In this document: positions 18,828-38,502 of the stretch, in pieces
Layout of the letters: each line of letters starts with the position of its first letter
Numbering within the stretch: position 1 is the stretch's first letter
Assembly: GCF_900155545.1 (NCBI RefSeq)
Contig: NZ_LT732525.1
Coordinates: forward strand, 585,075-641,798
Source of the DNA: Clostridium sp. Marseille-P2415
GTDB taxonomy: Bacteria; Bacillota; Clostridia; Lachnospirales; Lachnospiraceae
Reading direction: 5' to 3'
DNA: 56,724 nt
Position numbers and translations under genes: made by a program
Notes under the pieces: generated by a model
What the model was told of the DNA's origin: nothing
Database searches by the model: none
Seen by the model: only the letters and a program-made list of their open reading frames with translations

Positions 18828-18893
18828 GTCTTCCTCCATTTCTTTTGCCTTCAACCCAAACTTCTCCTGTCGGCAAATCCTGAGCATCAGCCT

Positions 18894-21515
18894 TTATGCC
18901 TTGCGGAATGAGTCTTCCGGTATATTTTCTAATAATTCATCTGCTTCCTTCAGCGTTTCCGGAAGATCACTGCGGATGAATTCAAGAACTACGATAACAT
19001 TGAGACACCACTGTGCCGTAAAATTCGTAGATATCCATGGGATCTCCCTCAATTTTTCCTGATTTCCCTGATTGGAAACGGGAAAAGTCCTGAATCCGTC
19101 ATGGTTTCCCTGACTGATAGAAGCATGAAGTAAATGGCACCACGTTCTTGCTGCCAGTACCTCATCGCCCAGATACTCTGCTCCATAGGCTCCCATGGCT
19201 GAGGCCATAAACGGAAAGCTGAATTCCCTTTTGCCTATGATTCCATTTGACGCTTCCATCTTCTGCTGTACGGGCAGATAGTAAAACCTTCCGTAATCCG
19301 CCAGCATCCCTTTCCACTCCTCATCATCCAACAGATCGGCCAACTCCATCCATATCTCAGGGGCCCCCATGCAGATTTGGAGATGGGTGCCTCCTGTCGT
19401 CCGCTCTCCGATGTAGCGCAGATGAACATCAGCCGGATTAAATTCAAAATCAGGACCGGATATCAGCTTTAACGGTGACTTCTTAATATCTCCCATTCCG
19501 GTCACGATCTTATCTCTGTACCTTTTATCGTTGAACCGCTCCCATTCCGTCATCCAGTTTGCACATAGAGAAGACCAATCCGGGCCGCTTCTTGCATGGC
19601 TCGGATAAACCATTTTCTCCTTTTCATAGAAATCCCCCAGCGGATCCCTGTTCAAAAAAGTCATTTCATTGTCCTTCAGCTCTTCAAATATATCTTCCAT
19701 TCTCCGGTCTCCGGTCAGATAATAGTAAAAACGGTGATGGGCCGCCATGGCAATTCTCGCTTCCTTACAGGGACAACCCCAGTGCCGGACATTGTGGCGG
19801 GATCCCAATCCCTTGTATTTTCCCATATGATATACGTCTACCTCGGAAGTGTGTCTCGACAGCTTCTCCGCCAGAACAAAGACATCTTCCCGTCCGGTTC
19901 TCATGAATTCATACCATAACCACAGCGTCGGAACAAGCTCCGTATTGTCCCAGGCATAGCCTCCCATATCATACCGCCACTGATGCCGCTCCCTGTCGTA
20001 GGAATGCATGAAATCACCATAATTGAACATGCCGTACCAATTCCTCTGAACTACTTCATTCCGGTAAAAGTCCACGGCCATGTCAAGCTGGTCCTCCAGC
20101 CAGTTTTCCGTCTCAGTTCCCCGTTCCGGCATGGACCAGTATCCAAAAGCCCTCCTCTTATGATAATATTCCGGCGTCCCCACATACTGGACCGGTCTTT
20201 TTACGGCTTCAGCAAAAACCTTTAAGCTCTGATCTTCCGGAATCATCTCTTCGGAAACCATAACGGAGAATTCGCTGGTACACGCGATTCCATAAGGCTC
20301 AGCGCCTTTATAATCATAGCCTTCGTAATATACCTGGTTATAGCCTCTGTTTGCATAGTGGCGGAAGTCCATGGCTTCTGCCTTAGGAGACCACAGCCAT
20401 ATGACAGCTTCTGCCGTATCCCCATCCAGATTCCGAAAGGTATAGCCGGACGGATACTTTTCCCAAAAATCCCGGATAGAAAATGATATGGAGCCATGCT
20501 CCGATCCGAATGCGGCTCCTCCTTCCGTCTTATTTCCATGAAGACAGTCCAGATAGCAGCAGTTCTCATCCCTGATTTTCTTTTTGATGCAGAAATGACT
20601 TACGCTGTCCTGGCACAAATCATATTCACTCCAAAACGGCATATCTTTTAAAACCGTGTCCACCGTCTCCTTATCAGCCTTCTCAAGCTCCAGCTTTTCT
20701 CCCCGAACCTGTTTTGCATAGATTTCCTGAGGAACTCCGGGCCGCCAGGTCAGAAGCTGCGCCATGCTTTCGTGGAACACACCATGGTCTCCCATGAATT
20801 TTACGTGACGGTTGTAAATATTTCCCTCTAACGGAGATTGAAAGCGGATGCCGATCCCTTTTAAAAAATCCTTTTCCTCATCTCCATCATATAAAAACGT
20901 ATGTACAAAATCAATGCGGGGGCTGTCAAGCCCGATTTTCATACGGAGGATAAACGGAATCTTTTTATCTCCATCGCCGGATTCATGATGCCCGGTATAT
21001 TTCACAATAACCTGTAAGGCTCCCTCTTCCTCCAGTGACAGCCCGGTGATCCTGGAATCATACTTTTTTTCAATTTTCACCGGATTGCCATTCCAAACGG
21101 AAGGTTCCTCCAAAAGCAGAACCGGCGTGGCATCCGTCAGAAACTTTATTTCATGAAAGGATATGGTATCAAACAGCCTTTTTCCGTCACAGGTGATTTT
21201 CACCTCCATACTTCCGGCCAGTATCTCCAGAAAGCCATCTTTCTTCACGACCCGGATTTTTTTCTCCGGTTGGACAGGGGTTCCGGGTACGACTTCAATC
21301 TCCTTTCCCATAAGAGCAGCATCTGCCGTATGGGCGGTCCATTTCACGGAACCATCGGGCCACCACGCCGTGATCCGGCTCTGCATGGGCACGTTTTCCT
21401 TCTTTTGGTTTTTTAACAGGTACTCCGTTTCTTTCGCGCAGCAGCCTTTCTCCCACATGCAGCCCCATATGGTATAACCGGTCAGCCTTCTGTCTCCCAA
21501 ACTATGTAATATCAT
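18894..21515 (-). CDS. YetA/PcRGLX-like exo-rhamnogalacturonan lyase family protein
   Basis: An 873-residue cytoplasmic protein resembling B. subtilis YetA and the fungal exo-rhamnogalacturonan lyase PcRGLX (PL26). The N-terminal beta domain includes SRITAWWPDGSVKWTAHTAD, a typical family opening. The central/C-terminal all-helical part has YDMGGYAWDNTELVPTLWLW and HWGCPCKEARIA, then TGGTHLQICMGAPEIWMEL. No signal peptide. GGAGG precedes the ATG. It begins the enzyme block after a hairpin that separates it from the binding-protein gene. Lyase activity is inferred from family and locus, not from a residue-level match. Confidence 0.8.
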   Translation of the reverse strand: MILHSLGDRRLTGYTIWGCMWEKGCCAKETEYLLKNQKKENVPMQSRITAWWPDGSVKWTAHTADAALMGKEIEVVPGTPVQPEKKIRVVKKDGFLEILAGSMEVKITCDGKRLFDTISFHEIKFLTDATPVLLLEEPSVWNGNPVKIEKKYDSRITGLSLEEEGALQVIVKYTGHHESGDGDKKIPFILRMKIGLDSPRIDFVHTFLYDGDEEKDFLKGIGIRFQSPLEGNIYNRHVKFMGDHGVFHESMAQLLTWRPGVPQEIYAKQVRGEKLELEKADKETVDTVLKDMPFWSEYDLCQDSVSHFCIKKKIRDENCCYLDCLHGNKTEGGAAFGSEHGSISFSIRDFWEKYPSGYTFRNLDGDTAEAVIWLWSPKAEAMDFRHYANRGYNQVYYEGYDYKGAEPYGIACTSEFSVMVSEEMIPEDQSLKVFAEAVKRPVQYVGTPEYYHKRRAFGYWSMPERGTETENWLEDQLDMAVDFYRNEVVQRNWYGMFNYGDFMHSYDRERHQWRYDMGGYAWDNTELVPTLWLWYEFMRTGREDVFVLAEKLSRHTSEVDVYHMGKYKGLGSRHNVRHWGCPCKEARIAMAAHHRFYYYLTGDRRMEDIFEELKDNEMTFLNRDPLGDFYEKEKMVYPSHARSGPDWSSLCANWMTEWERFNDKRYRDKIVTGMGDIKKSPLKLISGPDFEFNPADVHLRYIGERTTGGTHLQICMGAPEIWMELADLLDDEEWKGMLADYGRFYYLPVQQKMEASNGIIGKREFSFPFMASAMGAYGAEYLGDEVLAARTWCHLLHASISQGNHDGFRTFPVSNQGNQEKLREIPWISTNFTAQWCLNVIVVLEFIRSDLPETLKEADELLENIPEDSFRKA

Positions 21516-21550
21516 TCCTGTTTCCCTCCCAAAAATGCGGTCTGCTTAAA

Positions 21551-21582
21551 AGGCTTCAACCGTTCACTCACGCTTGAAGCCT
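21551..21582 (-). terminator. Intra-operon hairpin after the binding-protein gene
   Basis: AGGCTTCAA (21551-21559) pairs with TTGAAGCCT (21574-21582), followed by TTTTAAG on the minus strand. The short T-run suggests partial termination, giving more transporter mRNA than enzyme mRNA. Confidence 0.6.
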
Positions 21583-21604
21583 CTCTTTTCCATTTCCTGT
21601 TTAT

Positions 21605-23170
21605 TTATTTCGCCGTATCTTCCTGATAAAGCTTATTTACTTCCTCTACCAGCCTATCACCGCCGCGGTCCAGCCACTGTTTTGCAGCAGCTTCCAGACC
21701 TGCATCATCAATCTGTCCGCAGATATACTGAGTTCTGGCATCATCGATAATCTGCTCAATATCCGTACCGACCTCTGCGTTTACTTCCGAGTTTGCCAGA
21801 TATCCAAGAGCCGGATTAAAGACTGCGAACTGTTCATTATATTCATAAGCCTCATCCTGCGCCTTCATTGGTTCTGTTTTTTCCAGTAACGGTTTTAAAG
21901 CAGTCTGGTTGGGAATATAGCAAACACTCTGGTTAAGCCCGGCTGAAGGAGAATATTGAGGTTCCATTTCCCCTTTTTTCACAACATTTCCAGCCTCATT
22001 CAAATCATAGGTAACGCCCTCTAAGCCGTAGTCAGCCAGTACAAGCATCTCATCATCGCACATTTTATCCAGGAAATGCAGACAGTTCTTTACATCTTCC
22101 TCAGTCTTTGCCCCAGCCTTTGTAATCAGATAATATCCGTTAAAACCGCTGGTCGCCAGTGTTTTATCATTGATCGGTCCTGCCATTGTCATGGAAGCAT
22201 TCTTAGACGGATCGGTCACTGACTTCACGCCATTCATATCGTAATATTCCCAGATTCTTTTTGCGCCATCCATAACATCGATGAATGCACCTGCTTCCCC
22301 CTTTTTACAGCTGTCCTGAAACGTTCCGGAATCAACCGTTGCCCAGTCTTTTCTGATCAGACCGTCTTCATAGATCTTTCTCATCCATTTTAAAGCTTCC
22401 AGGTACTCTTCCGTCTGATGAACCGGAACCAGCTTCCCGTCTTTTTCCACCCATTCATTGCCGCATCCAAACCATGTCTGGATAATATCGATGGGCCCCG
22501 TATATTTGGTCATTTCCAGGCCATAGGTATCATCTTCCCCATTGCCATCCGGATCTTCGTAGGTAAATTTGTAAAGCATATTGTAAACATCCTCGACCGT
22601 CTTCGGCTTCTCGGTAATTCCTACCGCTTCCGCCCAGTCCGTGCGGTAAGAGAAGCCGTAGCGGCCGATAACCCTGGCCCGGTAGATACCAATGATTTTT
22701 CCATCCACAGTCAATGCCTTTAATACATCAGGATTTGCTTTCGACAGGTTCGGATAGCTCTCCTTATCCTGCAAAAAGGCCGTCAGATCCCAGAAGGCCC
22801 CCTTTCTGGCCGCATCCACCACATTGGCCGTTAAGTCTCCCGAAGAGGTAAGTACCATGGGCATATTGTCCTTATCCATCAAAGTAAGTCCAAGCTTTTC
22901 TTTATACGTATCATTGGATTCCCATTGCCAGTTCACATGAATGCCGGTGTGATCCTCATATCTCTTAATGACCTCATCAGATTTTTCATTCTTTAAGTCG
23001 GTACCGTGAAAGGAAGGCGCCATAAATGTAATAGTTGGCTTTCCGTCTGCGGAAGCAGCGGCCACATCCGTTTTAACGGAACCGCCCGAGCCGCCGCAGG
23101 CAGTTAAGGACCATGCCATAGCCCCCGTTAATGCTGCCGATAATGCTTTTTTCCATGTTTTTTTCATCAT
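21605..23170 (-). CDS. ABC transporter extracellular solute-binding lipoprotein (LplA/YtcQ-like)
   Basis: A 521-residue family 1 binding protein. The signal peptide MMKKTWKKALSAALTG ends in the lipobox LTAC, so it should be a lipid-anchored protein. The mature part begins with a GGSGGS linker and then PTITFMAPSFHG. Length and features (YDLNEAGNVVKKGEMEPQY) match the LplA/YtcQ group that binds pectin-derived oligosaccharides. It follows its two permease genes. Co-directional lyase and hydrolase genes point to rhamnogalacturonan or unsaturated galacturonan oligomers as ligands (inference). Confidence 0.88.
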   Translation of the reverse strand: MMKKTWKKALSAALTGAMAWSLTACGGSGGSVKTDVAAASADGKPTITFMAPSFHGTDLKNEKSDEVIKRYEDHTGIHVNWQWESNDTYKEKLGLTLMDKDNMPMVLTSSGDLTANVVDAARKGAFWDLTAFLQDKESYPNLSKANPDVLKALTVDGKIIGIYRARVIGRYGFSYRTDWAEAVGITEKPKTVEDVYNMLYKFTYEDPDGNGEDDTYGLEMTKYTGPIDIIQTWFGCGNEWVEKDGKLVPVHQTEEYLEALKWMRKIYEDGLIRKDWATVDSGTFQDSCKKGEAGAFIDVMDGAKRIWEYYDMNGVKSVTDPSKNASMTMAGPINDKTLATSGFNGYYLITKAGAKTEEDVKNCLHFLDKMCDDEMLVLADYGLEGVTYDLNEAGNVVKKGEMEPQYSPSAGLNQSVCYIPNQTALKPLLEKTEPMKAQDEAYEYNEQFAVFNPALGYLANSEVNAEVGTDIEQIIDDARTQYICGQIDDAGLEAAAKQWLDRGGDRLVEEVNKLYQEDTAK

Positions 23171-23207
23171 ACACTTCTCCTTTAATAATAAATATTTATG
23201 ATTGCAC

Positions 23208-24110
23208 TCAGCCCTTAACCGAGCCTACCATGACACCCTGGGTAAAATATTTCTGGATAAATGGATATATTACTAAAATCGGGATTGTAGCTACCACAGT
23301 TGTGGCCATCTTCACCGCTTTTTCCGGAGGCATGCCAAACGGTCCCCAGTCAAATCCGCTTTCTGTTGCCACAGAAGAAGTCATGAAAATGATTCTCCTC
23401 AGCACAATCTGAATGACTTCTTTATTTTTATCGGAAATATACATCATTGCATCGAAGTAGGAATTCCAATGGGTTACCGCATAGAACAGAGAAACGCTTG
23501 CCAGTACCGGTTTGGAAAGGGGGAGAATGATCCTTACAAATATCTGTAAATCATTCGAGCCATCCATCCTGGCTGCCTCCTCCAATTCCACGGGAAGTCC
23601 CTGAAAATAATTCTTTATGATAATCATATTAAAGGGGTTGATTGCTGCCGGAAGCCACAATGCCCAAAAGGTATTTTTTAAATGAAGCACATTGGACACC
23701 AGCATGTAGCTTGGGACCATACCGCCGGAAAACAGCATCGTGATGATGACCATGTTGGTAAATAATAATCTCCCTTTGAAATATGGCCTGGAGAGCGGAT
23801 AAGCCAGGGTACAGGAAAAAAACATATTGATCAATACCCCTACTAAAGTTACAATAAGGGAGTTCATCAATCCGTGTATGGCATCCCCGCTTTTAAATAT
23901 GTACTGGTACGCATTCATGGATAGGGTACGGGGAAAAAGAAAGAAGGCCCGCTCTGTCAGCTCCCTTTCTGTTGCAAAGGAACCTGCTACGATGTACACA
24001 AACGGAAGCAGGGTAACCAGGGCCAACAATCCCACAAAAAGATAGATGAAAACCTGAACCAGCTGATCCCCCGGGCTTCTTTTAATTTTCATATGATTCG
24101 TCTTTGCCAT
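23208..24110 (-). CDS. ABC sugar transporter permease (LplC/YtcP-like)
   Basis: A 300-residue MalG-type permease with six predicted membrane helices. The EAA loop that docks the ATPase is visible as EEAARMDGSNDLQIFVRIILP. The N-terminus (KIKRSPGDQLVQVFIYLFV) and C-terminal FIQKYFTQGVMVGSVKG are typical of the LplC/YtcP group. It starts 17 bp after the first permease gene. No ATP-binding subunit gene is in the locus, so a shared MsmX-type ATPase elsewhere is expected (family knowledge). Confidence 0.9.
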   Translation of the reverse strand: MAKTNHMKIKRSPGDQLVQVFIYLFVGLLALVTLLPFVYIVAGSFATERELTERAFFLFPRTLSMNAYQYIFKSGDAIHGLMNSLIVTLVGVLINMFFSCTLAYPLSRPYFKGRLLFTNMVIITMLFSGGMVPSYMLVSNVLHLKNTFWALWLPAAINPFNMIIIKNYFQGLPVELEEAARMDGSNDLQIFVRIILPLSKPVLASVSLFYAVTHWNSYFDAMMYISDKNKEVIQIVLRRIIFMTSSVATESGFDWGPFGMPPEKAVKMATTVVATIPILVIYPFIQKYFTQGVMVGSVKG

Positions 24111-24126
24111 TGCTTTGTTCTCCTTA

Positions 24127-25089
24127 TCAATAGAATCCTGATTCTCCGAAAACTTTCGCCAGCCTGTTGGCTCCTAATACCATGATCATGCTGACTACCG
24201 ATTTAAACATGCCGGCTGCCGTTGCCATGGAATAATTTCCGTTTACAACACCTTTCGTATAAATATAAGTGTCAAATACATCGGAAACCGACCGGTTCAT
24301 GGAATTCTGCATCAGGAATATCTGCTCATAGCCTGTATTTAAGATGGTGCCGACCCTTAAGATCAGCATGATGACAATGGTCGACCGGATGGCCGGTAAC
24401 GTTATATGCCACATCTTCTGCCAGCGGTTTGCGCCATCCACCTCTGCCGCTTCATAAAGCTGCACGTCAACGCCGGAAAGAGCAGCCAGGAAGATGATGG
24501 TGCCGTAACCGGTCTCCTTCCACATGCTCTGGCCCACGATCATGTGAACGAACAGCCTGGGATTGGACATGATATCCGGCGCATTTTCCCGCCCGAAAAG
24601 CTGGACCAGATTGTGGTATACCAGTCCGTCCGTGGTGCTGAAAAGCTGTGCGGTAAGTGCTGCTACAATGACCATGGATATAAAATGGGGAATATAAACC
24701 ATCGTCTGTGCAACACGCTTAAAAGCCGCATTCTTTATCTCATTTAAGAGTAATGCCAGAATGATCGGTGCGGGAAAGTAAAAGATCAGGCTGGCAATGG
24801 AAATGGATAACGTATTCTTAAGAACCTGTAAAAAATCGGGACCCGTAAAAAATTTTTTAAAAATACGAAGTCCTACAAAGGGGCTCTCAAAAAACGCACC
24901 GATCATGGAATTGCCGTTATACGGGCTGAAATCCTGAAACGCCATTACCAGTCCGCCCATAGGCAGATATTTAAATACCAGCATGTAAAGCACACCCGGT
25001 ATGATCATGATGTACAGCCACTTATGTACTGACAGCGCATGTTTCCAGGTGCCCGCCCTGGCTTTTGCATTGCTTTGAATCTTTTCCAT
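24127..25089 (-). CDS. ABC sugar transporter permease (LplB-like)
   Basis: A 320-residue MalF-type permease of the LplB/YteP group. It has a positively charged N-terminus, the first helix LYIMIIPGVLYMLVF and the EAA loop EAAEVDGANRWQKMWHITLP. It pairs with the following permease to form the membrane channel. It is the first gene of the transporter operon, behind a promoter that carries the 18-bp motif shared with the GH2 gene promoter. Confidence 0.9.
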   Translation of the reverse strand: MEKIQSNAKARAGTWKHALSVHKWLYIMIIPGVLYMLVFKYLPMGGLVMAFQDFSPYNGNSMIGAFFESPFVGLRIFKKFFTGPDFLQVLKNTLSISIASLIFYFPAPIILALLLNEIKNAAFKRVAQTMVYIPHFISMVIVAALTAQLFSTTDGLVYHNLVQLFGRENAPDIMSNPRLFVHMIVGQSMWKETGYGTIIFLAALSGVDVQLYEAAEVDGANRWQKMWHITLPAIRSTIVIMLILRVGTILNTGYEQIFLMQNSMNRSVSDVFDTYIYTKGVVNGNYSMATAAGMFKSVVSMIMVLGANRLAKVFGESGFY

Positions 25090-25183
25090 ATGCTCTCCTT
25101 TTCAATTTCCTTTTTCCATAATGCCAACATGAATTGGTAATTATGTCAGTTTTTTATATTTTGCGGTACCGCTTTGTGAGCAT

Positions 25184-25223
25184 ATTCTATACACAGGGGC
25201 AGGCATTTGTAAATAATCATTTT
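25184..25223 (-). promoter_or_regulatory. Transporter-operon promoter with shared 18-bp operator motif
   Basis: The motif AAAATGATTATTTACAAA (25206-25223, minus) contains the -35 TTTACA (25208-25213). TAGAAT (25184-25189) follows after 18 bp. The same motif with one change is at 30943-30960. Candidate AraC-regulator site. Confidence 0.65.
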
Positions 25224-25246
25224 ATGACCGGTTTTTCTTTGGAAAA

Positions 25247-25287
25247 AAGCCTCATATCCCGCATAGTTAAACGGTTTTATGAGGCTT
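25247..25287 (-). terminator. Terminator after the AraC regulator gene
   Basis: AAGCCTCATA pairs with TATGAGGCTT across about 21 bases, followed by TTTT on the minus strand. Confidence 0.75.
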
Positions 25288-25314
25288 GTGTACTAAAATA
25301 ATCATTTTATTCCA

Positions 25315-27477
25315 TCACTTCCGGTGCTCTTTGCGGAATGCCGCCGGTGTAAATCCAACATGATTTTTAAAAAAGCGGATAAAATTTTGTACATTATTAT
25401 ACATCAGCTTCTCCGAAATCTCGGCCACGGAATATTCTGTTGTTAAAAGCATATATTTTGCCTGTTTCAATTTCTCTTCATTTGCCATATCGGTAAATGT
25501 CACGCCCTTTTCCCGTTTCAGAATCTTACTTAAATAATTGGGATGATAGGACAGCTGATCCGCACAGTCGTTCAGGCTCATATTCCCTTTGCTGTCTTTA
25601 ATAAGCGCTACCATATGTTTTACAACTTCCGATTCCTCTCCCTCCTGTCTTTTTTTTACCAGCGTTGCAATGATCGGGTGAATGATTTCTCCGCTGACGG
25701 CTGCGACGACTTTTTTCTTATCATAAATCCGGGTAACGGAATTGAGTACATTGTATTGTTCACTGTCAAACACATCGGAAAGGGGAATATCTGCGGCTGC
25801 CGGAATATTTAACATTGCAGTCAAAAGCCGGTTCCAATAAAAGTTACGTTCAATTCCCACCACGTTTTTTCTTTCCATACGGTCAATGATCAGCTCCAGA
25901 AGACATGCCGATTCCTCTTCCTTACAGCTGATGATCGCCTGGATCAGCTCATTTTCCATAATCATATCGTAAACATTTCCCACAGGGCCCCTGATTAAAA
26001 AGTCATCAAACAGAACCAGCGAGGAATTATTCATGTCCGCCTGATTGGATTTGTTATACAATGCCTCCGTACATTCACTGTATGCGCGCCGTACATGATG
26101 GAGTTTGTGGAACGGCTGGCTGATGCCTGATGCAGTGGCAAACCCATAAGTTTTTGCAATATGATCCTTCAGTCCCTTATAAAGAAGGGCCGTCCTGGAG
26201 TCCACATCCGTATCATCAGCAGCTCCTGTTATGAATATCAGCTTATCCCGATAATAAACAGGAGCAATGAATATGTCTTTTTTCAATCCCTCCGGAAGGT
26301 CTGAAAGAATTGCAGCATAATCCGGCTGGTCCGTTTTACAGTTCATGGCGATCATCCGGTAAGCCGGCCATGGGACTATTTCCGATTTTTTCAATGCATC
26401 CTCAATATTTTTCACATTCAGTTCCCCTTCAATCAAGTTGGAAACCAAAAGCTTTTTTATCTGCTGATCCTGGTCATCCACAAATTTTTCCAGCCTCCGG
26501 AGCGGTTTGGCAAATGCCACCGCAGTCAGCCGTACCGCAAACAGGATCAATGCAAATCCTGCCAATACGGCAAAAGAGGCGAAAATGAATACAATGGCAT
26601 CCTTTTTTACCTCTGCCGCATTATAGCCCACCAGATAAGTCAGACCGCTTATATCCTCTGTCCGCACGCTGATATGATATTTTGTCCCATTTTCCCCCTT
26701 ATAGACTCCTGAGCCCTCTCTATTGCTGTTTAAATACAGCTCGGCCATCCCTGGACCTGTTTCCATCAGCACTTTCCCCCTGCTGATGATCGCAACATCA
26801 TATCCCATCGTTTTATAGGTCTGAGACATTTCCTTCAATTCGTTTTCATCGATCTTAATGGTGAGAAGCCAGGATATCCCGTCAATGCCCCGCTCTTTTT
26901 TCACAACCAGACGAAGACCGGAGGTGTCGATTGTATTGGTAGCCCGCATGCTTCCGGACATGGGAGTGACCGCCTCCGGCCGGTTCAGCCAGTAAACAGA
27001 CAAAAGCATCTTCTCCTGTTCCTCCAAAAAACGCTGTGCCTCTTCCCGGTTCTTCATCTGTTCAAAACGGAACATTCCGTAATTATTAAAAACCCAGCCA
27101 TAATTTACATTGATAAATTCATAATCCGCAATATATTTTGCCATGAAATAATTGCCTTCCATGATCCTCTGTGCCTGCTTTAAATTGCTGAATGTGGAAA
27201 ATGGCGGCTCCTCCTGCCTCCCCATCCACCGGACTGCATCTCCGTTCGCTGCTTCGATATAATACTCTTTTAAGGAAGATAAAATATTTTCATATTCCCG
27301 GGAAACCTCATCACTATAGGAGTTTAAAGCCATCTGGTTTTTGGAGGTTTCTCCCTTAATATAAATATTGCATGATACGATCCCCATAACAATGAGCGGC
27401 AGCGTCACCAGCCCCAAAAGTCTCATAAACATCTGCTTTTCATAGGTTAATGAGCTTATAATTTTTTTAATCCGCAT
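25315..27477 (-). CDS. Membrane-anchored AraC-family regulator with extracellular sensor
   Basis: A 720-residue regulator. A membrane helix near residues 15-35 (LLGLVTLPLIVMGIVSC) and a second near 293-315 (AIVFIFASFAVLAGFALILF) flank an outside domain of about 260 residues. A cytoplasmic linker and a C-terminal AraC domain with two helix-turn-helix units follow (LNDCADQLSYHPNYLSKI and YSVAEISEKLMYNNVQNFIR, then GFTPAAFRKEH). The start at 27477 has AAGGA upstream; a TTG three codons earlier was rejected. This class senses oligosaccharides outside and activates nearby pectin genes. It sits between the GH2 gene and the transporter operon, the natural targets. Confidence 0.88.
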   Translation of the reverse strand: MRIKKIISSLTYEKQMFMRLLGLVTLPLIVMGIVSCNIYIKGETSKNQMALNSYSDEVSREYENILSSLKEYYIEAANGDAVRWMGRQEEPPFSTFSNLKQAQRIMEGNYFMAKYIADYEFINVNYGWVFNNYGMFRFEQMKNREEAQRFLEEQEKMLLSVYWLNRPEAVTPMSGSMRATNTIDTSGLRLVVKKERGIDGISWLLTIKIDENELKEMSQTYKTMGYDVAIISRGKVLMETGPGMAELYLNSNREGSGVYKGENGTKYHISVRTEDISGLTYLVGYNAAEVKKDAIVFIFASFAVLAGFALILFAVRLTAVAFAKPLRRLEKFVDDQDQQIKKLLVSNLIEGELNVKNIEDALKKSEIVPWPAYRMIAMNCKTDQPDYAAILSDLPEGLKKDIFIAPVYYRDKLIFITGAADDTDVDSRTALLYKGLKDHIAKTYGFATASGISQPFHKLHHVRRAYSECTEALYNKSNQADMNNSSLVLFDDFLIRGPVGNVYDMIMENELIQAIISCKEEESACLLELIIDRMERKNVVGIERNFYWNRLLTAMLNIPAAADIPLSDVFDSEQYNVLNSVTRIYDKKKVVAAVSGEIIHPIIATLVKKRQEGEESEVVKHMVALIKDSKGNMSLNDCADQLSYHPNYLSKILKREKGVTFTDMANEEKLKQAKYMLLTTEYSVAEISEKLMYNNVQNFIRFFKNHVGFTPAAFRKEHRK

Positions 27478-27550
27478 AATCCCCAATCCTTACTCTTTGA
27501 TTTTGCTATCTTAATCTTATTTGCCTTTTCCGTCCCGCATGCTTTCAGGC

Positions 27551-27598
27551 ATAAAAAAAGAGAGCAAAAGCTGCGCATTTTATATGAACGCAGCTTTT
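27551..27598 (-). terminator. Terminator after the GH2 gene
   Basis: AAAAGCTGCG (minus, 27589-27598) pairs with CGCAGCTTTT (27566-27575), followed by a T-run at 27553-27559. Confidence 0.8.
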
Positions 27599-27606
27599 GT
27601 TCCATT

Positions 27607-30600
27607 CTATCTTCCTGTTTCAATACGGAATACGCCTACCCTCTCGTCGTATAATGCAGTTACTCCTTTGATATAAGGAATCAATGCATTCACTTCCATG
27701 ACAAAGCTTCCCTCCGGTGTAACATACGGTTCTCCATCCATCAGGTTTTCTTTTCCGTTTACCAGAAGATGGGTTCTTCCTGCTTCCGCCTCCACCGTTT
27801 CATTTCCTGATACCAGTATCAGCTTTTTTTCATCTGGCAGATACGTATAGGAAAATTCATTCCCCCACTCCAGCTTAAGCCTTTCCAGGATACACAGAAC
27901 TGCCCCCCAAATGCTGCCATTTTTATTGATACTCCTGACACCTCTGGTATCAGGCTCCTGCCCATTCACCAGAATTTTGCAGTATTGCCGGTCTTCCGGC
28001 ACGTACTTGCAGGAATCCGCCAAAGGAATAGCAGGAAACGCCGGGGTTATTACCGGAGCTTCCTCAGAATACGCCTGGTACCACACTGCCGGGCCTTCCT
28101 CAGTCAGAGGAGACAGGTCCACAAAAGTGCTTTCCCACCGGATACACGCTTCAGGAACATCTGCCATTTTCGCACTTAACATAATCTTCCCGGGTTTCCT
28201 GGTGGAACGGATAAAAACTCTATTTATCCCGCACTCAGAATATACATAATTCTCGTGTATCACGCTGTCATCCCTGCCATAGCCTGCGAAGCGTCCGCTA
28301 TTATATCCGCCTAAAAATACGCCTTCCCCTTCCAGAGTGAAGCCGATCCTGTCCCCGCAGAGGGGGCAGATCCTTCCATCTTTGTCTACCACCTTTACAT
28401 CAACATAAGCCACGTCCGCTCCATCCGCATACATGCCTTTCGGTGATGTATGCAATTGAAGCTTTAATCCGGCAGGATCGCTGGCCGTATGGATTTCATC
28501 CTTTGCTGCCAGCCTGCCATCGTACCCATATCCATGGGCTTCAATAACTCCATGCTCCGTTACATTCACATCAGGGAATGCAAATACAAATGTATCCTGT
28601 GGCTTTTCACAGGCTCCGGCCTTTTTTCCATTTACAAAAAGCAGGATCTTTTCAGTGCTGTAGCTGCCTATGACATAAACGGTCTTATGCTTCGGATCCC
28701 TGTATTTCACTGTCCCGTTCTCTTCCCAATAACTGCCGTTAAAGCTCTTATCTATGTAACGGTAATTGATCCCGTCTTCCGGAGGATAATTCCAGTGGCC
28801 CATGATCCGTATCAGAGGTACCGGTGACTGCATCACTGAAAAAACATCAAAGCTCTGCTTTTTTATCCGCACAGGATCTACCCGCCCGCTCATACGGCCA
28901 TTTTCACTAAAGGACTGGCGTCCATGCTGAGCGGAATCTGTCCAGCAAAGTGCGGCACATGCACTGTAATAGTTTTTTCCCGAAGCGCCGCCGATCCTGT
29001 CATGAAAAAATTCGCTGTAACCTTTGGCTGCAGTTAAGGCAAAATCCTCGGAAGTCAGGTCATAAAAATCCATTCCGACCTGTTTTTTCCCTCCTTTTCC
29101 GAGCCACTTATTTTTATAATCAAAATCCGGCGGTGTAAAATCATCCCATATGCGCCTGGGGGCTTCTTCTCTTGCATATTCTGTTTCCGTCACCGGACCA
29201 TGTTCCGCCAGGAAGCGTGCTGCATGGCGGTTCAGCATGGTGCCCGCATACTCCGATTCCTTTACCACATCTTCTGTATTTATTGTACGGCATCCCATGA
29301 AGCGTCCGCCCTTCGGGTCCAGCTTTTCCTTTAATAAACGCATTTCTCTCATATGTTCACTGCTGATGGAATTATTTCCCGCCTCCCAGAAGAAGATAGA
29401 TGGATGATTGCGAAACGAAATAATAACATCACGCATCAGTTCCACTCTCTGATCCCACTGTCTTCCGAAATTCTCTCTTTCCTTATCCCCGGCCGGCTGG
29501 GTACATACGATCCCATGACGGTCACAGGAACGGATATCGGCGGGAGAGGCAGCCACATGCATAAAGCGCAGATGATTGCTGTTGCTTTCCCGTATCCACA
29601 TCGTATCCTGGTCTTTGAGCCATTCCGGAGCAATTCCGATGGCAGCCCATTCATTGGATGCCCGCTGGGCATAACCGGTCAGCCAGACAGGGACTTCATT
29701 GACCCGTATTCCGCGGTCCTTATGATAATCCACAAACCGGAATCCGGTCTCAATGACTGCGCTGTCTGCCCTGTGGCCTTCTACATATAACTGAACCTCG
29801 ATCCGGTAAAGGTACGGATCCTCAATGCTCCAGAAACGGACCTCCGTCCGCGGTGACAAAGCGGAAATCACGGAAACCGACCGGGAGTCCGTCACTGTTT
29901 CCCTTACCATTTTTTCATCCTCTACCGGCATGTACTGATCTGCATCCTTATCCCATATATACGCATCTTCCGGCGTAATGGAAAGCTCCGGCCGGACCTT
30001 TCCTGCGGGGGCAATCTGCTGTTTTTCGGAAAGGAAACGAATGACTTCCGTTCCTTTTAAGTCTTTGACAGAAATATCCAGCCATGCGGTCACACGTTCC
30101 CGGCCTTCATTGCGTATCTCCGCTTCTGTCCCGATCTGAACACTTTTTTCATCAATATGGTAATCCTGCCCGTAAATATAAACTCCCTTTGTCTGCAGGT
30201 TGCTGTAGAGCGGAAGGGTCAAATAAACTTCCGGCTTAAAATGAAGTTTTACCGGCCGGGTAATCCCTCCCACGGACGGGTTAAAATCATTACAGTTCCA
30301 GAAAAATCCTACCCCCTTTTTATAGCCGGGCTCCTCACGGCCCTGGGGAAGCAGATAGGTGCCCGGTACTGCATCCGGCTTATTCGGTGTCTCAGCGATA
30401 CAGAAATCAATGTTTCTTGTGGAGGTATTATCGGTAGCTACCGCAATCAGATTCGGGGCATCGTAGCGGACCCAGGGGGTGAGATCAAATCCAAAGGGCG
30501 CGACTCCTGCTTCGTAATATCCCGCCATACACCCATTGATATAAAGATAACAGGTCTGGCGCATTCCTTCAAATTCTATCAGCACTTTCTGTCCCCGGTG

Positions 30601-30885
30601 CTTTTCCGGTACCGGGAACCATTTCCGGTAAAAGGCCGACGTTCTTTTCTGTCCGCTTCCTGCATCCTGAATCCTGTCCCGGAATAAGTCCTTGTCATTG
30701 AACGTATGGGGAATGGTAACGGTCTGCCAGCCCTCTTCAGAATATTCTTTTTCAAAAAAGCAATGCCCGCTGCCATCACATGTTTTTTTAACCGCCTGAT
30801 CCATCGGGAATGCATCTGCCAACAGGAATTTCCAGCCGTTATGAAAATAATATGTTTTTCCAGGTACGTTTTTTTCCGGTTCCAT
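27607..30885 (-). CDS. GH2-family glycoside hydrolase with unusual active-site motif
   Basis: A 1092-residue protein without a signal peptide. The order is: sugar-binding jelly roll (about 1-210, GQKVLIEFEGMRQTCYLYING), Ig-like domain (about 215-370), TIM barrel (about 375-690, RIREV/HLRFMHVAASPADI), more Ig domains, and a C-terminal copper-amine-oxidase-N-like domain (last about 110 residues, LLVNGKENLMDGEPYVTPEG). The GH2 acid/base motif, normally ending GNE, reads FFWEAGNNSIS here; the Glu of the NE pair is absent, while TETEYARE could carry the nucleophile. A beta-galactosidase-like role on pectin side chains is possible but unproven. It is preceded by its own promoter. Confidence 0.82.
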   Translation of the reverse strand: MEPEKNVPGKTYYFHNGWKFLLADAFPMDQAVKKTCDGSGHCFFEKEYSEEGWQTVTIPHTFNDKDLFRDRIQDAGSGQKRTSAFYRKWFPVPEKHRGQKVLIEFEGMRQTCYLYINGCMAGYYEAGVAPFGFDLTPWVRYDAPNLIAVATDNTSTRNIDFCIAETPNKPDAVPGTYLLPQGREEPGYKKGVGFFWNCNDFNPSVGGITRPVKLHFKPEVYLTLPLYSNLQTKGVYIYGQDYHIDEKSVQIGTEAEIRNEGRERVTAWLDISVKDLKGTEVIRFLSEKQQIAPAGKVRPELSITPEDAYIWDKDADQYMPVEDEKMVRETVTDSRSVSVISALSPRTEVRFWSIEDPYLYRIEVQLYVEGHRADSAVIETGFRFVDYHKDRGIRVNEVPVWLTGYAQRASNEWAAIGIAPEWLKDQDTMWIRESNSNHLRFMHVAASPADIRSCDRHGIVCTQPAGDKERENFGRQWDQRVELMRDVIISFRNHPSIFFWEAGNNSISSEHMREMRLLKEKLDPKGGRFMGCRTINTEDVVKESEYAGTMLNRHAARFLAEHGPVTETEYAREEAPRRIWDDFTPPDFDYKNKWLGKGGKKQVGMDFYDLTSEDFALTAAKGYSEFFHDRIGGASGKNYYSACAALCWTDSAQHGRQSFSENGRMSGRVDPVRIKKQSFDVFSVMQSPVPLIRIMGHWNYPPEDGINYRYIDKSFNGSYWEENGTVKYRDPKHKTVYVIGSYSTEKILLFVNGKKAGACEKPQDTFVFAFPDVNVTEHGVIEAHGYGYDGRLAAKDEIHTASDPAGLKLQLHTSPKGMYADGADVAYVDVKVVDKDGRICPLCGDRIGFTLEGEGVFLGGYNSGRFAGYGRDDSVIHENYVYSECGINRVFIRSTRKPGKIMLSAKMADVPEACIRWESTFVDLSPLTEEGPAVWYQAYSEEAPVITPAFPAIPLADSCKYVPEDRQYCKILVNGQEPDTRGVRSINKNGSIWGAVLCILERLKLEWGNEFSYTYLPDEKKLILVSGNETVEAEAGRTHLLVNGKENLMDGEPYVTPEGSFVMEVNALIPYIKGVTALYDERVGVFRIETGR

Positions 30886-31765: not shown

Positions 31766-31813
31766 GCTAATCCCTCCATAAAATAACCTTCATTAATATA
31801 ACACAATAAAGTT

Positions 31814-31842
31814 ATTATACAACTCCTGAAAATTATTCACAA
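31814..31842 (-). promoter_or_regulatory. Promoter of the DUF1961 gene
   Basis: TTGTGA (31837-31842), 17-bp spacer, TATAAT (31814-31819). The GATTGTGAATAA over the -35 is a weak match to the locus motif. Confidence 0.6.
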
Positions 31843-32300
31843 TCGCTTTTCCATACTTGAGTAGCTCCGTCGAACTGAGCTTGTGGGGGAATGATTCTTT
31901 TATGCCCAATGGGTACAGACACTCTATCTAAGCGGCCAGCTTAAGTCAAAATTGACACTACTTCGGGCGCTTTGTCCGAAACCATAGCCTGATGCCTTAT
32001 TTCGCATACAACAGTATGCCTGTGATGCCTTTCACCAGCCTATAATATCAGAATTGTACCTTTTCCTTTATAGGGGCTACTGTTTCCATGATGGAAACCT
32101 TCAGTTCATTTGTTTCTGGTTTCATAGACATCTGACCCAGAAATGCCGTGTACACGACTCTTAATAATAAGAAAGAAAAATGATCTACCTTAAGCCATCA
32201 CAGAAATGTGGCTACTTTCTCTAAGTACAAATATAACAATCAGAGCACCGGTTCCATGGATATTAAAAAAATGCAAAGTAGATAAATCCTTAGCGTCCTA
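31843..32300. other. Gene-free, degraded-looking stretch before the BlaI-type operon
   Basis: No convincing gene. Short broken frames exist (for example a 25-codon minus-strand frame beginning MKPETNELKVSIMETVA, ending near 32056) that could be remnants of something larger, but none was identified. It marks the border between the GC-richer pectin locus and the AT-rich island. Confidence 0.4.
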
Positions 32301-32360
32301 TTGACAATTCTGTTCTACTGGAGTAAAATAACATCAAAACAATTCTACTGGAGTAAAATA
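32301..32360 (+). promoter_or_regulatory. Promoter and twin operators of the BlaI-type operon
   Basis: TTGACA (32301-32306), 17-bp spacer, TAAAAT (32324-32329). An 18-bp sequence TTCTACTGGAGTAAAATA occurs twice, at 32313-32330 and 32343-32360, exactly 30 bp apart. Each has the dyad TACT-GG-AGTA. The first copy covers the -10 box, so bound repressor should block transcription. Confidence 0.75.
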
Positions 32361-32381
32361 TTTTTGTATAGGAGTTTAACA

Positions 32382-32741
32382 ATGCAAATCAAATTATTCG
32401 ATTCAGAACTAAAGATAATGGCTGTTCTATGGAAAAACGGTGACACCACTGCAAAGCAAATAGCGGAAATACTTAAGGAGCAAGTGGGTTGGAATAAAAC
32501 TACGACCTACACCTTGATCAAAAGGTGTATTAATAAGGGAGCTATTGAGCGTATTGAGCCGAATTTTGTATGCCGCCCACTTGTAACCATTGAACAGGTA
32601 AGAGAACTTGAAACAACGGAACTTATTAACAAAATGTATGATGGTGCTGCCGACCAGCTTGTTGCTTCCATTTTAGGACGTCAAAACCTATCACCGGAAG
32701 AAATTGAAAGGCTAAAGCAGCTAGTCAATATTCTGGAATAA
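32382..32741 (+). CDS. BlaI/MecI-family transcriptional repressor
   Basis: A 119-residue winged-helix repressor. LFDSELKIMAVLWKNGDTTAKQIAEIL and WNKTTTYTLIKRCINKGAIER are the classic BlaI/MecI DNA-binding stretch; the C-terminal helices (VASILGRQNLSPEEIERL) form the dimer. In known systems the BlaR1-type protease causes cleavage of this repressor. The start at 32382 has AGGAG upstream; the frame is open further back but includes the promoter. The gene is AT-rich compared with the flanks. It is followed 11 bp later by the M56 protease gene and likely controls its own operon through the twin operators. Confidence 0.92.
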   Translation: MQIKLFDSELKIMAVLWKNGDTTAKQIAEILKEQVGWNKTTTYTLIKRCINKGAIERIEPNFVCRPLVTIEQVRELETTELINKMYDGAADQLVASILGRQNLSPEEIERLKQLVNILE

Positions 32742-32752
32742 GGAGGGTGGCT

Positions 32753-34294
32753 ATGAGCCTATTAAAAATGAGTTTTTCTACTACTATTCTTATTCTGGCC
32801 ATTGTGGTAATCCGTGCGTTGCTATTGTACAAACTACCCAAAAAAACATTCCTTGTGCTGTGGGGAGTAGTGTTGTACCACTTGTTGATTCCTTTTTCTA
32901 TTCCTTCAAAGTTCAGTATTTTTACTGTTGTAGATAATCTTAGAAACCAAATTTATAAAGAGGATTTGCCCCTAACTGGGACACCTATTCCCTTTAACGG
33001 TACAATAATTGCATCTACAGTATCAATTTCGCCGGATTCGGCATCTGTGAGCATATCACCCATCTTAATTTTATGGATTGTGGGTTCGTTTGTTTGTGCC
33101 CTATGTTTCATTATAACGCACCTTCGTTGCCGTAGGGAGTATAAAACTGCTTTGCCGCTTGACAACGAATTTGTGAAAGACTGGCAGCAAAAGCATCTGA
33201 CCAGGCGCAGGGTAAAAATCCAGCAGTTGGATAAGATTTCCACTCCGTTGACCTATGGAATATTTCGACCAGTTGTACTTCTGCCCAAGCAAACAGATTG
33301 GACAGATGAAACGCGGTTAAACTATATCCTAATGCATGAGTTTGTGCATATCCGGCGATTTGACATACTAACAAAGCTATTGATGGCAACGGCATTATGC
33401 ATACACTGGTTCAATCCTTTTGTATGGCTGATGTATATACTTGCAAACCGTGATATCGAACTGTCCTGTGATGAATCGGTTGTAAGAACGTTTGGAGTAA
33501 ATATGAAATCGGCCTATGCTTTGACTTTGATTGGGCTAGAGGAAAAGAAAAGCCGTCTAACCCCACTTGTTAATAGTTTCAGCAAAAATGCGATTGAAGA
33601 AAGGATTGTATCTATTATGAAAATGAAGAAAACTTCCTTTGTAGGAATACTGTTGGCCTTAACCTTAGTTATTGGAACGACAACTGTTTTTGCTACGAGT
33701 GCATTAGCTATAAATAATGAATCCAAAGATAAATTAATTAATAATTCTCTTATGAGTCAAGCAGAAGTTATTGATAGTGAAAATCGTAATTTAATTGGAA
33801 CAAGTGTCCAAGATAATTCTACGCCTTTCCAATCAGCACATACACCTAATACTACATCAAATAACATCAACAATGATGCAGACTTAAGTGTGCCTGAAAA
33901 TTCCCTTGTTAATAAATTAGCTTCTCAAGATATGTTATCTCCAAGTAGTATTACAGAATTTGAAGCCACGGATAATATTACTCCTGAAATTATTATGCCC
34001 AATGGGAGTGCGGCAATCTTTTCAGAAAATGACCATCAAGGCTGGACTTGTAAAAAGGGTGATAGTCTAGTATATAAATTTGAGAAATATCCATCAGAAG
34101 TAACGGATTCTCAAACAATTATTGTTGGCTATTCTTTGGATGGCGTTTTATATCCTGGAGAAGAATTTAAAGGTTCAAGCGGAACATATCAATTAAACAT
34201 CACAAAAGGAGGCGATTACTATATCTATGTCATCAGCGCAACATCTGACTATCTCGCACTAAAACAAGGTACAATTTCTATTTTGAATAATTAA
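32753..34294 (+). CDS. BlaR1-like M56 membrane metalloprotease with non-PBP sensor domain
   Basis: A 513-residue protein. Helices near 10-28, 33-50 and 102-122 come first, then a cytoplasmic M56 protease domain with the zinc motif HEFVH (195-199) and a later acidic ligand in DIELSCDESV. A helix follows at about 296-317, and an outside domain fills 318-513. BlaR1 and MecR1 have a penicillin-binding domain there; this one has a Ser/Asn-rich linker (318-415) and a small beta-rich domain with no SxxK, SxN or KTG set. It may therefore sense something other than beta-lactams. The start at 32753 follows AGGAGG. It is the second gene of the operon. Confidence 0.88.
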   Translation: MSLLKMSFSTTILILAIVVIRALLLYKLPKKTFLVLWGVVLYHLLIPFSIPSKFSIFTVVDNLRNQIYKEDLPLTGTPIPFNGTIIASTVSISPDSASVSISPILILWIVGSFVCALCFIITHLRCRREYKTALPLDNEFVKDWQQKHLTRRRVKIQQLDKISTPLTYGIFRPVVLLPKQTDWTDETRLNYILMHEFVHIRRFDILTKLLMATALCIHWFNPFVWLMYILANRDIELSCDESVVRTFGVNMKSAYALTLIGLEEKKSRLTPLVNSFSKNAIEERIVSIMKMKKTSFVGILLALTLVIGTTTVFATSALAINNESKDKLINNSLMSQAEVIDSENRNLIGTSVQDNSTPFQSAHTPNTTSNNINNDADLSVPENSLVNKLASQDMLSPSSITEFEATDNITPEIIMPNGSAAIFSENDHQGWTCKKGDSLVYKFEKYPSEVTDSQTIIVGYSLDGVLYPGEEFKGSSGTYQLNITKGGDYYIYVISATSDYLALKQGTISILNN

Positions 34295-34325
34295 ATCAAT
34301 AATTAATCTTATGAGGAGGTACATC

Positions 34326-34826
34326 ATGAATAAGCTCAGAAAACTTTGTGGCTTTTTACTTTCAATTGTTATGGTTGTGACTCTTTGCATTCCAGCAAGT
34401 GCGGCGGCATCTAGTAATATCACAGGTGGAATTGATTACGTGGTTTACAATCAAAACGGTGAGATTGTTGAAGAAGGAACTATACCACCAAGTAACGCGA
34501 ATTACCATTGGTCAGGTATAACTCTGGACAATGGGTGGTATACATCTTTTATGCCATCTAATTCATCTGCTAGAGGTTTTTATGTTACAGACGGAACAAA
34601 GATGAAGTTTTCTTACACATTAAATAGAAGTGCAACAATGAAATATCAATTTATCAAAACTAACTATAATGGTACTGATGATGAATATGATTGGAAAAGC
34701 GGCACTAAAACTGGAAAGAGTGCTACTGTATACGCAACTGCTGATGAGACAAAATATTATCGTGTAGGCATTACAAATGCGTCTTCAGATCGTGTAACTC
34801 TTACTTCTGTAAATTTTACATTTTAA
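34326..34826 (+). CDS. Small secreted protein linked to the BlaR1-like sensor
   Basis: A 166-residue protein with a clear signal peptide (MNKLRKLCGFLLSIVMVV...PASAAA, cleavage near residue 28). The mature part is rich in Ser, Thr, Tyr and Asn, probably all beta. Its end, KYYRVGITNASSDRVTLTSV, resembles the end of the sensor domain next door, DYYIYVISATSDYLALKQG, by eye. It may be a ligand, a binding partner or a product released under control of the system. AGGAGG precedes the ATG at 34326. No family recognised. Coupled to the M56 gene with a 31-bp gap. Confidence 0.75.
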   Translation: MNKLRKLCGFLLSIVMVVTLCIPASAAASSNITGGIDYVVYNQNGEIVEEGTIPPSNANYHWSGITLDNGWYTSFMPSNSSARGFYVTDGTKMKFSYTLNRSATMKYQFIKTNYNGTDDEYDWKSGTKTGKSATVYATADETKYYRVGITNASSDRVTLTSVNFTF

Positions 34827-34918
34827 CTGAACTTAACTCTTTAATTGCCAAAATATTATAGGGAAGTACATACAATTTAAAAGTTTTTATTCAAAATAGT
34901 TTGTACCTTTATAAATAT

Positions 34919-34960
34919 CTCCTTTCCGATGTCATAATTCTTATCGGAAAGGAGTTTTTT
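34919..34960 (+). terminator. Terminator of the BlaI-type operon
   Basis: CTCCTTTCCGAT (34919-34930) pairs perfectly with ATCGGAAAGGAG (34943-34954), then TTTTTT. Confidence 0.9.
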
Positions 34961-35240
34961 CATACGCTTTTCCAATAGCGTCCTATCCACTCAGGTAATC
35001 TGATTACAGCAAAATGATAGAGCATGATGCCATTCACCACGCTCTGCCATCACTTCATATTATCTAACAGCATGACACACCTCCCAGTATGGTTAAAAAA
35101 CAATGTATTGTTATTAAGATTTTAACATATAAGGAATGTATTTACCAATGGCTTTTTCCTGAACCACATACTTGTACCAAAGCCCCTCAATCTTTTCTTT
35201 CCATATCTGGGTTAATATGGTAAACTATTTTCCAGAGACT
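34961..35240. other. Gene-free stretch between island and HD gene
   Basis: No gene or clear signal seen. A minus-strand broken frame (MLYHFAVIRLPEWIGRYW...) may be a remnant of an unidentified coding sequence. It forms the right border of the AT-rich island. Confidence 0.35.
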
Positions 35241-38227: not shown

Positions 38228-38389
38228 GAGGGGGGTTCCTTGAAATTCCATCAAAAAATAAACTGAGGTCCGGACTCTTGACATTAAGGCTGCACGATGA
38301 AAAGGAATATGTTACCATGGTGATACGGAACAATCGTGTCACTGCAAGGGCGTTGGCCTTCCATCATACATAGATGGGAGGTGGTGCGG

Positions 38390-38473
38390 ATGAAATATGA
38401 CTTTTAGGACCTTATGGCCTTTGGTATGTTCATAATCGCATTACTTACCTTTATTTTCATTAATTGTAAGTAG
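38390..38473 (+). pseudogene. Decayed type I toxin (TxpA-like holin-type small peptide)
   Basis: From the ATG at 38390, preceded by GGGAGG, the frame reads MKYDF, a TAG at 38405-38407, then DLMAFGMFIIALLTFIFINCK and stop. The second part is the single-helix membrane peptide typical of Gram-positive type I toxins (about 30 residues in intact relatives). The in-frame stop at codon 6 looks like inactivation, though an inner ATG (38414) could still give a 19-residue peptide. A good promoter spacing is missing upstream (TTGACA at 38278 without a matched -10). Confidence 0.7.
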
Positions 38474-38502
38474 CGTTTTTCTTTAAAGTCCTGGAAACAG
38501 GC

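Follow-up and report, generated by a model that had tools for sequence, protein, structure and literature searches.

A three-gene cassette in Clostridium sp. Marseille-P2415 (Lachnospiraceae; assembly GCF_900155545.1, contig NZ_LT732525.1, positions 585,075 to 641,798, a stretch of 56,724 nucleotides referred to here as the window) combines a BlaI-type repressor and a BlaR1-type M56 membrane protease with a small secreted protein that appears to be a paralogue of the protease's own extracellular domain. We propose that this is probably a self-repressing signalling cassette, in which a cue received by the ectodomain would lead to cleavage of the repressor and release of the secreted paralogue. 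The repressor, protease and secreted-protein genes make up a single unit, which has a promoter, two operators in tandem and a strong terminator (Table 1). Sequence comparisons across genomes indicate that the unit is a horizontally acquired cassette, an arrival in this genome, and that the ectodomain and its secreted partner are a module plugged by evolution into several transducers.

Structure prediction gave GOLD-like beta-sandwiches in one register for both the ectodomain and the secreted protein, and both models align to the p24 GOLD domain 5azw_B over identical chain residues. This agrees with a first-pass annotation of the sequence, which had hinted at a common fold of the sensor and the secreted product and had proposed comparing the two predicted structures. 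The predicted beta-sandwich order resembles that of the GOLD domains of p24/TMED and SEC14L proteins (5azw, 7rrm, 4tlg), which stand among the equal-best structural matches to each model; at similar scores the fold lists further include carbohydrate-binding modules, Eph receptor domains and toxin domains, and none is claimed as a relative. Unlike the GOLD proteins, the pair is bacterial, with one copy on a signalling protein and one secreted, and it shows no convincing sequence relationship to them: the profile PF01105 gave no match to the window proteins at E <= 1 and matched one relative at 0.13, below the cut-off. No convincing sequence relatives of either domain were found in the PDB.

Ancestry is detectable through bridging relatives. 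In the genome that carries the window, a profile of sensor ectodomains alone (A8) recovered the sensor (2.4e-58) and the secreted gene (3.5e-4), with no other match at E <= 1e-3 among the 9 of 20 candidates scored, and a 13-sensor profile (search space 5000) aligned in one register with four of six secreted partners, each at E <= 5.3e-4. With hhalign, seven sensors against 19 secreted proteins gave 96.9% (E 1.7e-10), seven against 17 secreted proteins (A1) 89.3%, and three sigma-type sensors against A1 66.8%, none of 200 column shuffles reaching the score in either of the last two comparisons; three M56 sensors against A4 gave 48.4%, without shuffle control. The sensor profile A5 detects the secreted gene of genome G029 (2.7e-4), and the secreted profile A6 detects the sensors of G029 and G679 (5.1e-6 and 1.1e-4) among 16 genomes. 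Other comparisons weigh against common ancestry or give a weak signal. BLASTP of the window pair reached a best E of 0.091 over a short stretch; in the window's own genome A5 found the sensor and nothing else, with all 17 candidates scored; three M56 sensors against A1 gave 1.9%, with 7 of 200 shuffles at or above, and 19 window-type sensors a weak 23.4% (0 of 200 shuffles). Reciprocally, A1 picks up none of the 19 window-type sensors, the sensor profile picks up 2 of the 17 secreted proteins, and the secreted profile fell below 1e-3 in one of 11 sensor rows (L027, 6.5e-7), followed by L083 (0.003), L029 (0.03) and the window (0.059). Overall, bridging relatives give good support to the homology of ectodomain and secreted protein, and the window pair by itself gives weak support. 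The resemblance that had been seen by eye between the last 30 or so residues of the protease and the end of the secreted protein is real; it extends over some 100 residues, not 30, and can be demonstrated mainly with the help of relatives.

Homologues of the secreted protein, which has no Pfam match at E <= 1 (scan run from 34311), number 17 with the window's own, the 16 others being 42-68% identical. The secreted profile matched 7 of 200 genomes of the family at E <= 1e-3 (G000, G191, G102, G029, G025, G159, G026), and all seven hold, in the same unit as the secreted gene, a membrane protein with a sensor-type ectodomain (in the order secreted, sigma, sensor in G191 and G102). Leave-one-out sensor profiles supported this for one locus per type (L024 3.6e-39, L027 1.9e-23, L029 5.2e-13); the sensor match in G026, a genome unmatched in the A5 search, is partial (model positions 111-164, E 9.4e-7). 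At class level the secreted-led search matched 5 of 391 genomes, with G582 the sole strong match besides the window's, and no sensor-type gene was seen by eye in the stretch inspected there (L026 5373-11787). Weak hits of the secreted profile that covered its N-terminal part or 25-45 positions only (G198, G527, G555, G026 C67 and several others) were not counted.

Searches led by the sensor, with up to 8 or 9 first-look candidates scored per genome, matched 13 of 397 family genomes (A5), 4 of 382 class genomes, three of them new (A8), and one of 398 genomes in a phylum draw (A8), namely the window's own, the other 397 giving none. A secreted homologue lies in the sensor's unit in 8 of these 16 sensor genomes, or 8 of the 11 in which linkage could be decided (G000, G191, G102, G029, G025, G159, G679, G742); three have no secreted neighbour beside the sensor (G122, G126, G277). 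Five were left out of the decision: G015 and G018, whose contigs end 330 and 89 bases past the sensor gene (secreted match in the assembly: none and weak partial, respectively), G128 (a weak match, 9.6e-4), G291 (a sensor fragment in a broken frame, with no secreted match in the assembly) and G515. The eight linked genomes represent five locus types, the loci of G191/G102 and of G025/G159 being near-identical and those of G029/G679 related. In G291, the last sensor-domain strands (L083 4245-4589, E 1e-16) are fused to part of an unrelated-looking enzyme and may be what is left of a lost copy. G515 encodes a signal-peptide protein with a sensor-type domain (L084 4522-5632, E 1.8e-7) and, next to the sensor-type gene, a second small secreted protein without profile match or detectable similarity to the partner family.

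The mount that carries the ectodomain differs between loci. A BlaI/M56 pair is found in the window and in G277. In seven genomes (G191, G102, G029, G025, G159, G126, G018) an extracytoplasmic function (ECF) sigma factor, Pfam-confirmed at one locus per type, and a membrane anti-sigma-like protein replace the repressor and protease; these relatives have the ectodomain in common with the window, and five of the seven have the secreted partner in the unit. The anti-sigma-like label is by position and topology only, with no Pfam anti-sigma match in the proteins scanned. By eye, G122, G015, G742 and, from the secreted-led search, G026 carry the domain on a bare membrane anchor, and G679 has a shortened sensor and no sigma gene in the stretch read. 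An ectodomain search returned 41 proteins, and among the 17 read two (P0024 and P0025) look lipoprotein-like by eye; in a single comparison the window ectodomain aligned to that of an ECF-sigma-linked protein at 34% over 182 aa (E 1e-32). That the secreted gene is strictly tied to BlaI/M56 was rejected, its partners in the other loci read being ECF-sigma-linked anti-sigma-like proteins or bare anchors that bear this ectodomain. The one BlaI/M56 pair read outside the window, that of G277, has no secreted neighbour. P0003 and P0019 hint at another BlaI/M56 pair with the secreted gene, both being listed with a longest contig of 11,906 bases.

Domain swapping between transducer and ectodomain is also apparent among six M56 proteins compared, the window's included. 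P0021, P0022 and P0023 share 74, 69 and 65% of residues 1-299 with the window protease, yet in BLASTP their ectodomains give no meaningful match to the window's (none, E 4.0 and E 9.9, respectively); conversely, the ectodomain of P0020 (Lutispora thermophila) is 57% identical over 182 aa while its transducer is only 24% identical. P0019 resembles the window protease in both parts (74 and 72%).

Several observations were made around the relatives. A near-identical ECF-type stretch is present in two genomes of different genera (L024 in G191, L025 in G102) and in the phage-collection record MT836313, which is marked unverified (L031); the last also has, by eye, an integrase-like frame, so that the ECF-type version appears mobile. 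By eye, the L027 and L047 versions adjoin agr-like genes, L027 also a subtilase-like gene, and the L030 version adjoins ABC-transporter and radical-SAM peptide-maturation genes, a radical-SAM gene being seen at L047 as well. An alpha/beta hydrolase gene comes next in the L027, L030 and L047 versions (by eye); it is Pfam-confirmed only for L029.

The switch to which the pair is attached in the window is of a known type. The repressor, whose family placement rests on the Penicillinase_R profile, matches PF03965 over the whole protein (E 9.1e-24, 84.5 bits against a cut-off of 22.6) and resembles MecI (1okr, E 1.3e-12). The protease aligns with solved BlaR1 (8exp, E 4.2e-9) over residues 3-298 and carries HEFVH at 195, with H195, H199 and E236 at zinc-ligand positions and E236 and D240 at BlaR1 spacing. 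Its LVNS275/F276 (the slash marks the bond) aligns with the BlaR1 autocleavage site LSHS283/F284, given as LSHS/F in PMC9834060, and is a predicted autocleavage loop; up to this site the transducer appears BlaR1-like. The repressor, the M56 HEFVH protease and the signal-peptide protein of the first-pass annotation were all recovered, the first two with Pfam matches and HEFVH by script. With BlaR1/BlaI of Staphylococcus aureus (PMC9834060; 8exp) and MecI (1okr), the cassette has in common the repressor family and an operator-overlapped promoter, and with BlaR1 the M56 HEXXH...E arrangement, the autocleavage motif L-x-x-S/F, a C-terminal ectodomain and a secreted product of related fold. It differs from BlaR1 in an ectodomain that is GOLD-like in the predicted model and without penicillin-binding motifs, and in a secreted product that is a paralogue without enzyme family match. 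The repressor also departs from BlaI: MecI N101-F102 aligns with S96-I97 in LVAS96/I97, placing Ile where BlaI and MecI have the P1' Phe of their cleavage site, a point against the proposed circuit for which we lowered the claim that the repressor is cut like BlaI. Both presumed substrates of the protease, its own loop and the repressor, read L-V-x-S followed by a bulky residue, which would fit co-adaptation and departs from the almost invariant BlaI Phe. The same genome has seven further M56-type matches (L002-L008), none of them matched by the ectodomain profile, and PADLOC gave weak repressor matches only (0.0034, 0.042) and none for the protease or the secreted protein.

The two dyad operators share the core TACTNNAGTA and are candidate BlaI sites over the cassette's own promoter. 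Two matches to the 18-mer TTCTACTGGAGTAAAATA with three mismatches allowed occurred in 0 of 100 shuffles; matches to the operator core number three in the window against 0.35 expected, and 1 of 100 shuffles gave three. The promoter call is convincing because of its score, its position and the operators, and site counts alone would be insufficient (the region has 16 promoter-like sites, shuffles 13.8). The twin operators and strong terminator noted earlier are upheld. For the protease, the ATG at 32753 follows AGGAGG and gives 513 aa, whereas an alternative frame from 32747 gives 515 aa; residue numbers count from the former, except for results obtained on the 515-aa frame.

Table 1 Features of the cassette and of the islet that contains it (window coordinates).
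Feature	Position	Strand	Evidence or remark
Inserted AT-rich islet, ~3.3 kb	31854..35178	.	approximate borders, from homology to relatives
Third operator-core-like site, TACTTGAGTA	31854..31863	+	at left islet border; may be chance
Sigma-70-type promoter-like site, TTGACA-17 nt-TAAAAT	32301..32329	+	11/12 consensus matches
Operator 1, TTCTACTGGAGTAAAATA	32313..32330	+	overlaps -10 box
Operator 2, identical TTCTACTGGAGTAAAATA copy	32343..32360	+	30 bp downstream of operator 1
BlaI/MecI-type repressor, 119 aa	32382..32741	+	PF03965 E 9.1e-24
M56/BlaR1-type membrane metalloprotease, 513 aa	32753..34294	+	PF05569 E 6.6e-50
GOLD-like beta-sandwich ectodomain of protease	33971..34285	+	predicted model
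Signal-peptide secreted protein, 166 aa, putative paralogue of protease ectodomain	34326..34826	+	
GOLD-like beta-sandwich of secreted protein	34512..34823	+	predicted model
Intrinsic terminator	34919..34960	+	-19.7 kcal/mol, z -5.85

We regard the module as an arrival because relatives keep its flanks adjacent without the islet, because the secreted gene is unique to this genome within the genus (1 of 25 genomes) and because G+C content, at 40-52% in the other 1-kb windows, drops to 34-37% in the three that cover 32001-35000. Among the matches listed, the HD-domain gene of the right flank is present in all 24 other genus genomes searched (broken in G223) and the DUF1961 gene of the left flank in 17 of 24; in all 17 holders these genes lie side by side in divergent orientation, their matched spans 164-206 bp apart, compared with 3,496 bp here. 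BLASTN of 11 of these 17 relatives against the window placed both flanks in 10, with the left homology ending at 31791-31853 and the right resuming at 35179-35197. The AT-rich composition and the transfer proposed in the first-pass annotation are both supported, whereas its degraded non-coding flanks were not borne out: those stretches belong to the insertion, and the left one (31854-32300) has no second copy elsewhere in the genome. Beyond the three genes, the listed frames in the islet are of 96 aa or less; no mobility gene was recognised among them, the small frames being unscanned. Plasmid carriage was rejected, as a plasmid collection gave no match. In a phage collection, the unverified record MT836313 carries the ECF-type cassette of G191/G102, and in a scan of IMG/VR 153 stretches fitted a pattern and none was confirmed. 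A scan of genome contigs gave three loci, which were not used: two lie at contig ends in a single strain of Metaclostridioides mangenotii and match in part (46% over query residues 1-62), and the third is a short match in Idiomarina. Rfam at E <= 1 returned three eukaryotic-type families, all far below cut-offs. Elsewhere in the window, 15696-30885 is a locus for pectin degradation (a family 11 rhamnogalacturonan lyase that bears a GDSL domain, a PcRGLX-like lyase, a solute-binding protein, an AraC regulator and GH2), and 38380-38480 holds, by eye, a very short hydrophobic frame that follows a good ribosome-binding site and is broken early by an in-frame stop; we take it to resemble a small holin-like peptide gene.

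How the cassette might work can be sketched from its parts. At rest, the BlaI-type repressor would sit on the twin operators over the promoter, as its family and the operator position suggest. The M56 protease, by sequence and model a BlaR1-type zinc transducer, would carry an external GOLD-like sandwich in place of the penicillin-binding domain. If it behaves like its family, a cue at the ectodomain would cause it to clear the LVNS/F loop and to cut the repressor at LVAS/I; the operon would then open, its main output being the secreted, free paralogue of the ectodomain. This paralogue may bind the extracellular ligand of the ectodomain, which would protect the cell and end the signal that had induced the paralogue. 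We infer, indirectly, that the paralogue most likely acts on the sensor's ligand or on the sensor itself; that it captures the ligand, by binding and not by hydrolysis, is a tentative proposal made by analogy. In the BlaR1 case the sensor is related to the class D beta-lactamases (PMC9834060). Sensor and enzyme there have a fold and a ligand in common, a precedent for drawing sensor and effector from one fold. A wider conception, which we consider doubtful, would make the GOLD-like ectodomain and secreted paralogue one mobile extracellular recognition unit, interchangeable among BlaR1-type proteases, ECF anti-sigma-like proteins, lipoproteins and bare anchors, in which the paralogue binds the ectodomain directly and the cell reads its own or its neighbours' product.

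It is conceivable, if somewhat unlikely, that the two products associate with each other, the secreted paralogue serving as ligand or inhibitor of the ectodomain, so that the circuit gauges the level of its partner outside the cell in feedback or kin sensing. GOLD domains mediate protein-protein contacts in p24 proteins, and the pair is kept with unrelated transducers and even with bare anchors without a fused signalling part (G742, G026), as a physical complex predicts; the sensors without neighbouring partner (G122, G126, G277) and the partner of G582 without a sensor seen nearby argue the other way. Should the two instead share ancestry and nothing more, the ectodomain having come from a duplicated secreted gene to sense a general envelope cue with the products unlinked today, the old paralogy, to which the lack of a direct BLASTP match within the window pair points, and the wide distribution of such beta-sandwiches would fit. 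We find this unlikely, given that the two genes have stayed linked in six types of locus (window, G191/G102, G029/G679, G025/G159, G742, G026) and on three different mounts.

An effector with immunity, in which the secreted protein hits other bacteria and the anchored paralogue shields the producer, is decidedly unlikely. It would suit the agr-like or peptide-maturation genes that adjoin some relatives (L027, L030, L047) and the bare or lipoprotein-like anchors, all of these seen by eye, but the secreted proteins scanned have no toxin-like family match, the window's has no defence-family match, no such neighbours were seen at the window copy, and partnerless sensors exist. The repressor and protease, being of BlaI/BlaR1 type, could finally belong to a standard regulator of beta-lactam resistance whose sensor has decayed, an explanation that can be virtually dismissed. 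The sequence stands strongly against it: the ectodomain has a different predicted fold and is conserved in relatives, and no beta-lactamase or transpeptidase family matches either the protease or the secreted protein. Beta-lactam sensing as such was rejected on the absence of a family match (no transpeptidase or beta-lactamase family at E <= 1 in a Pfam scan of the ectodomain), the absence of KTG, and the fact that BlaR1 models and structures stop at the ectodomain, the generic BlaR1 model ending at residue 321 and the alignment to solved BlaR1 at 298. The non-beta-lactam sensor of the first-pass annotation is upheld by these results, and of the motifs it reported missing from the outer domain KTG is indeed absent, as is KSG, whereas a script found one SKDK in the linker and three SxN triplets.

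The switch that we favour as the core of a self-repressing cassette is already known; literature searches, judged from listings and abstract starts, turned up neither the ectodomain with its secreted paralogue nor the reuse of such a pair on unrelated switches. Regulation of antibiotic resistance is the best-known role of BlaR1-type switches, and here one bears another ectodomain with a secreted paralogue adjoining. The theme of BlaR1 and the class D beta-lactamases, sensor and effector from one fold, would thus be repeated with a different fold, and the cassette offers a clean empty site together with a compact three-gene system. The recurrence of the pair on unrelated switches amounts to a natural experiment in receptor grafting and points to a common extracellular function.

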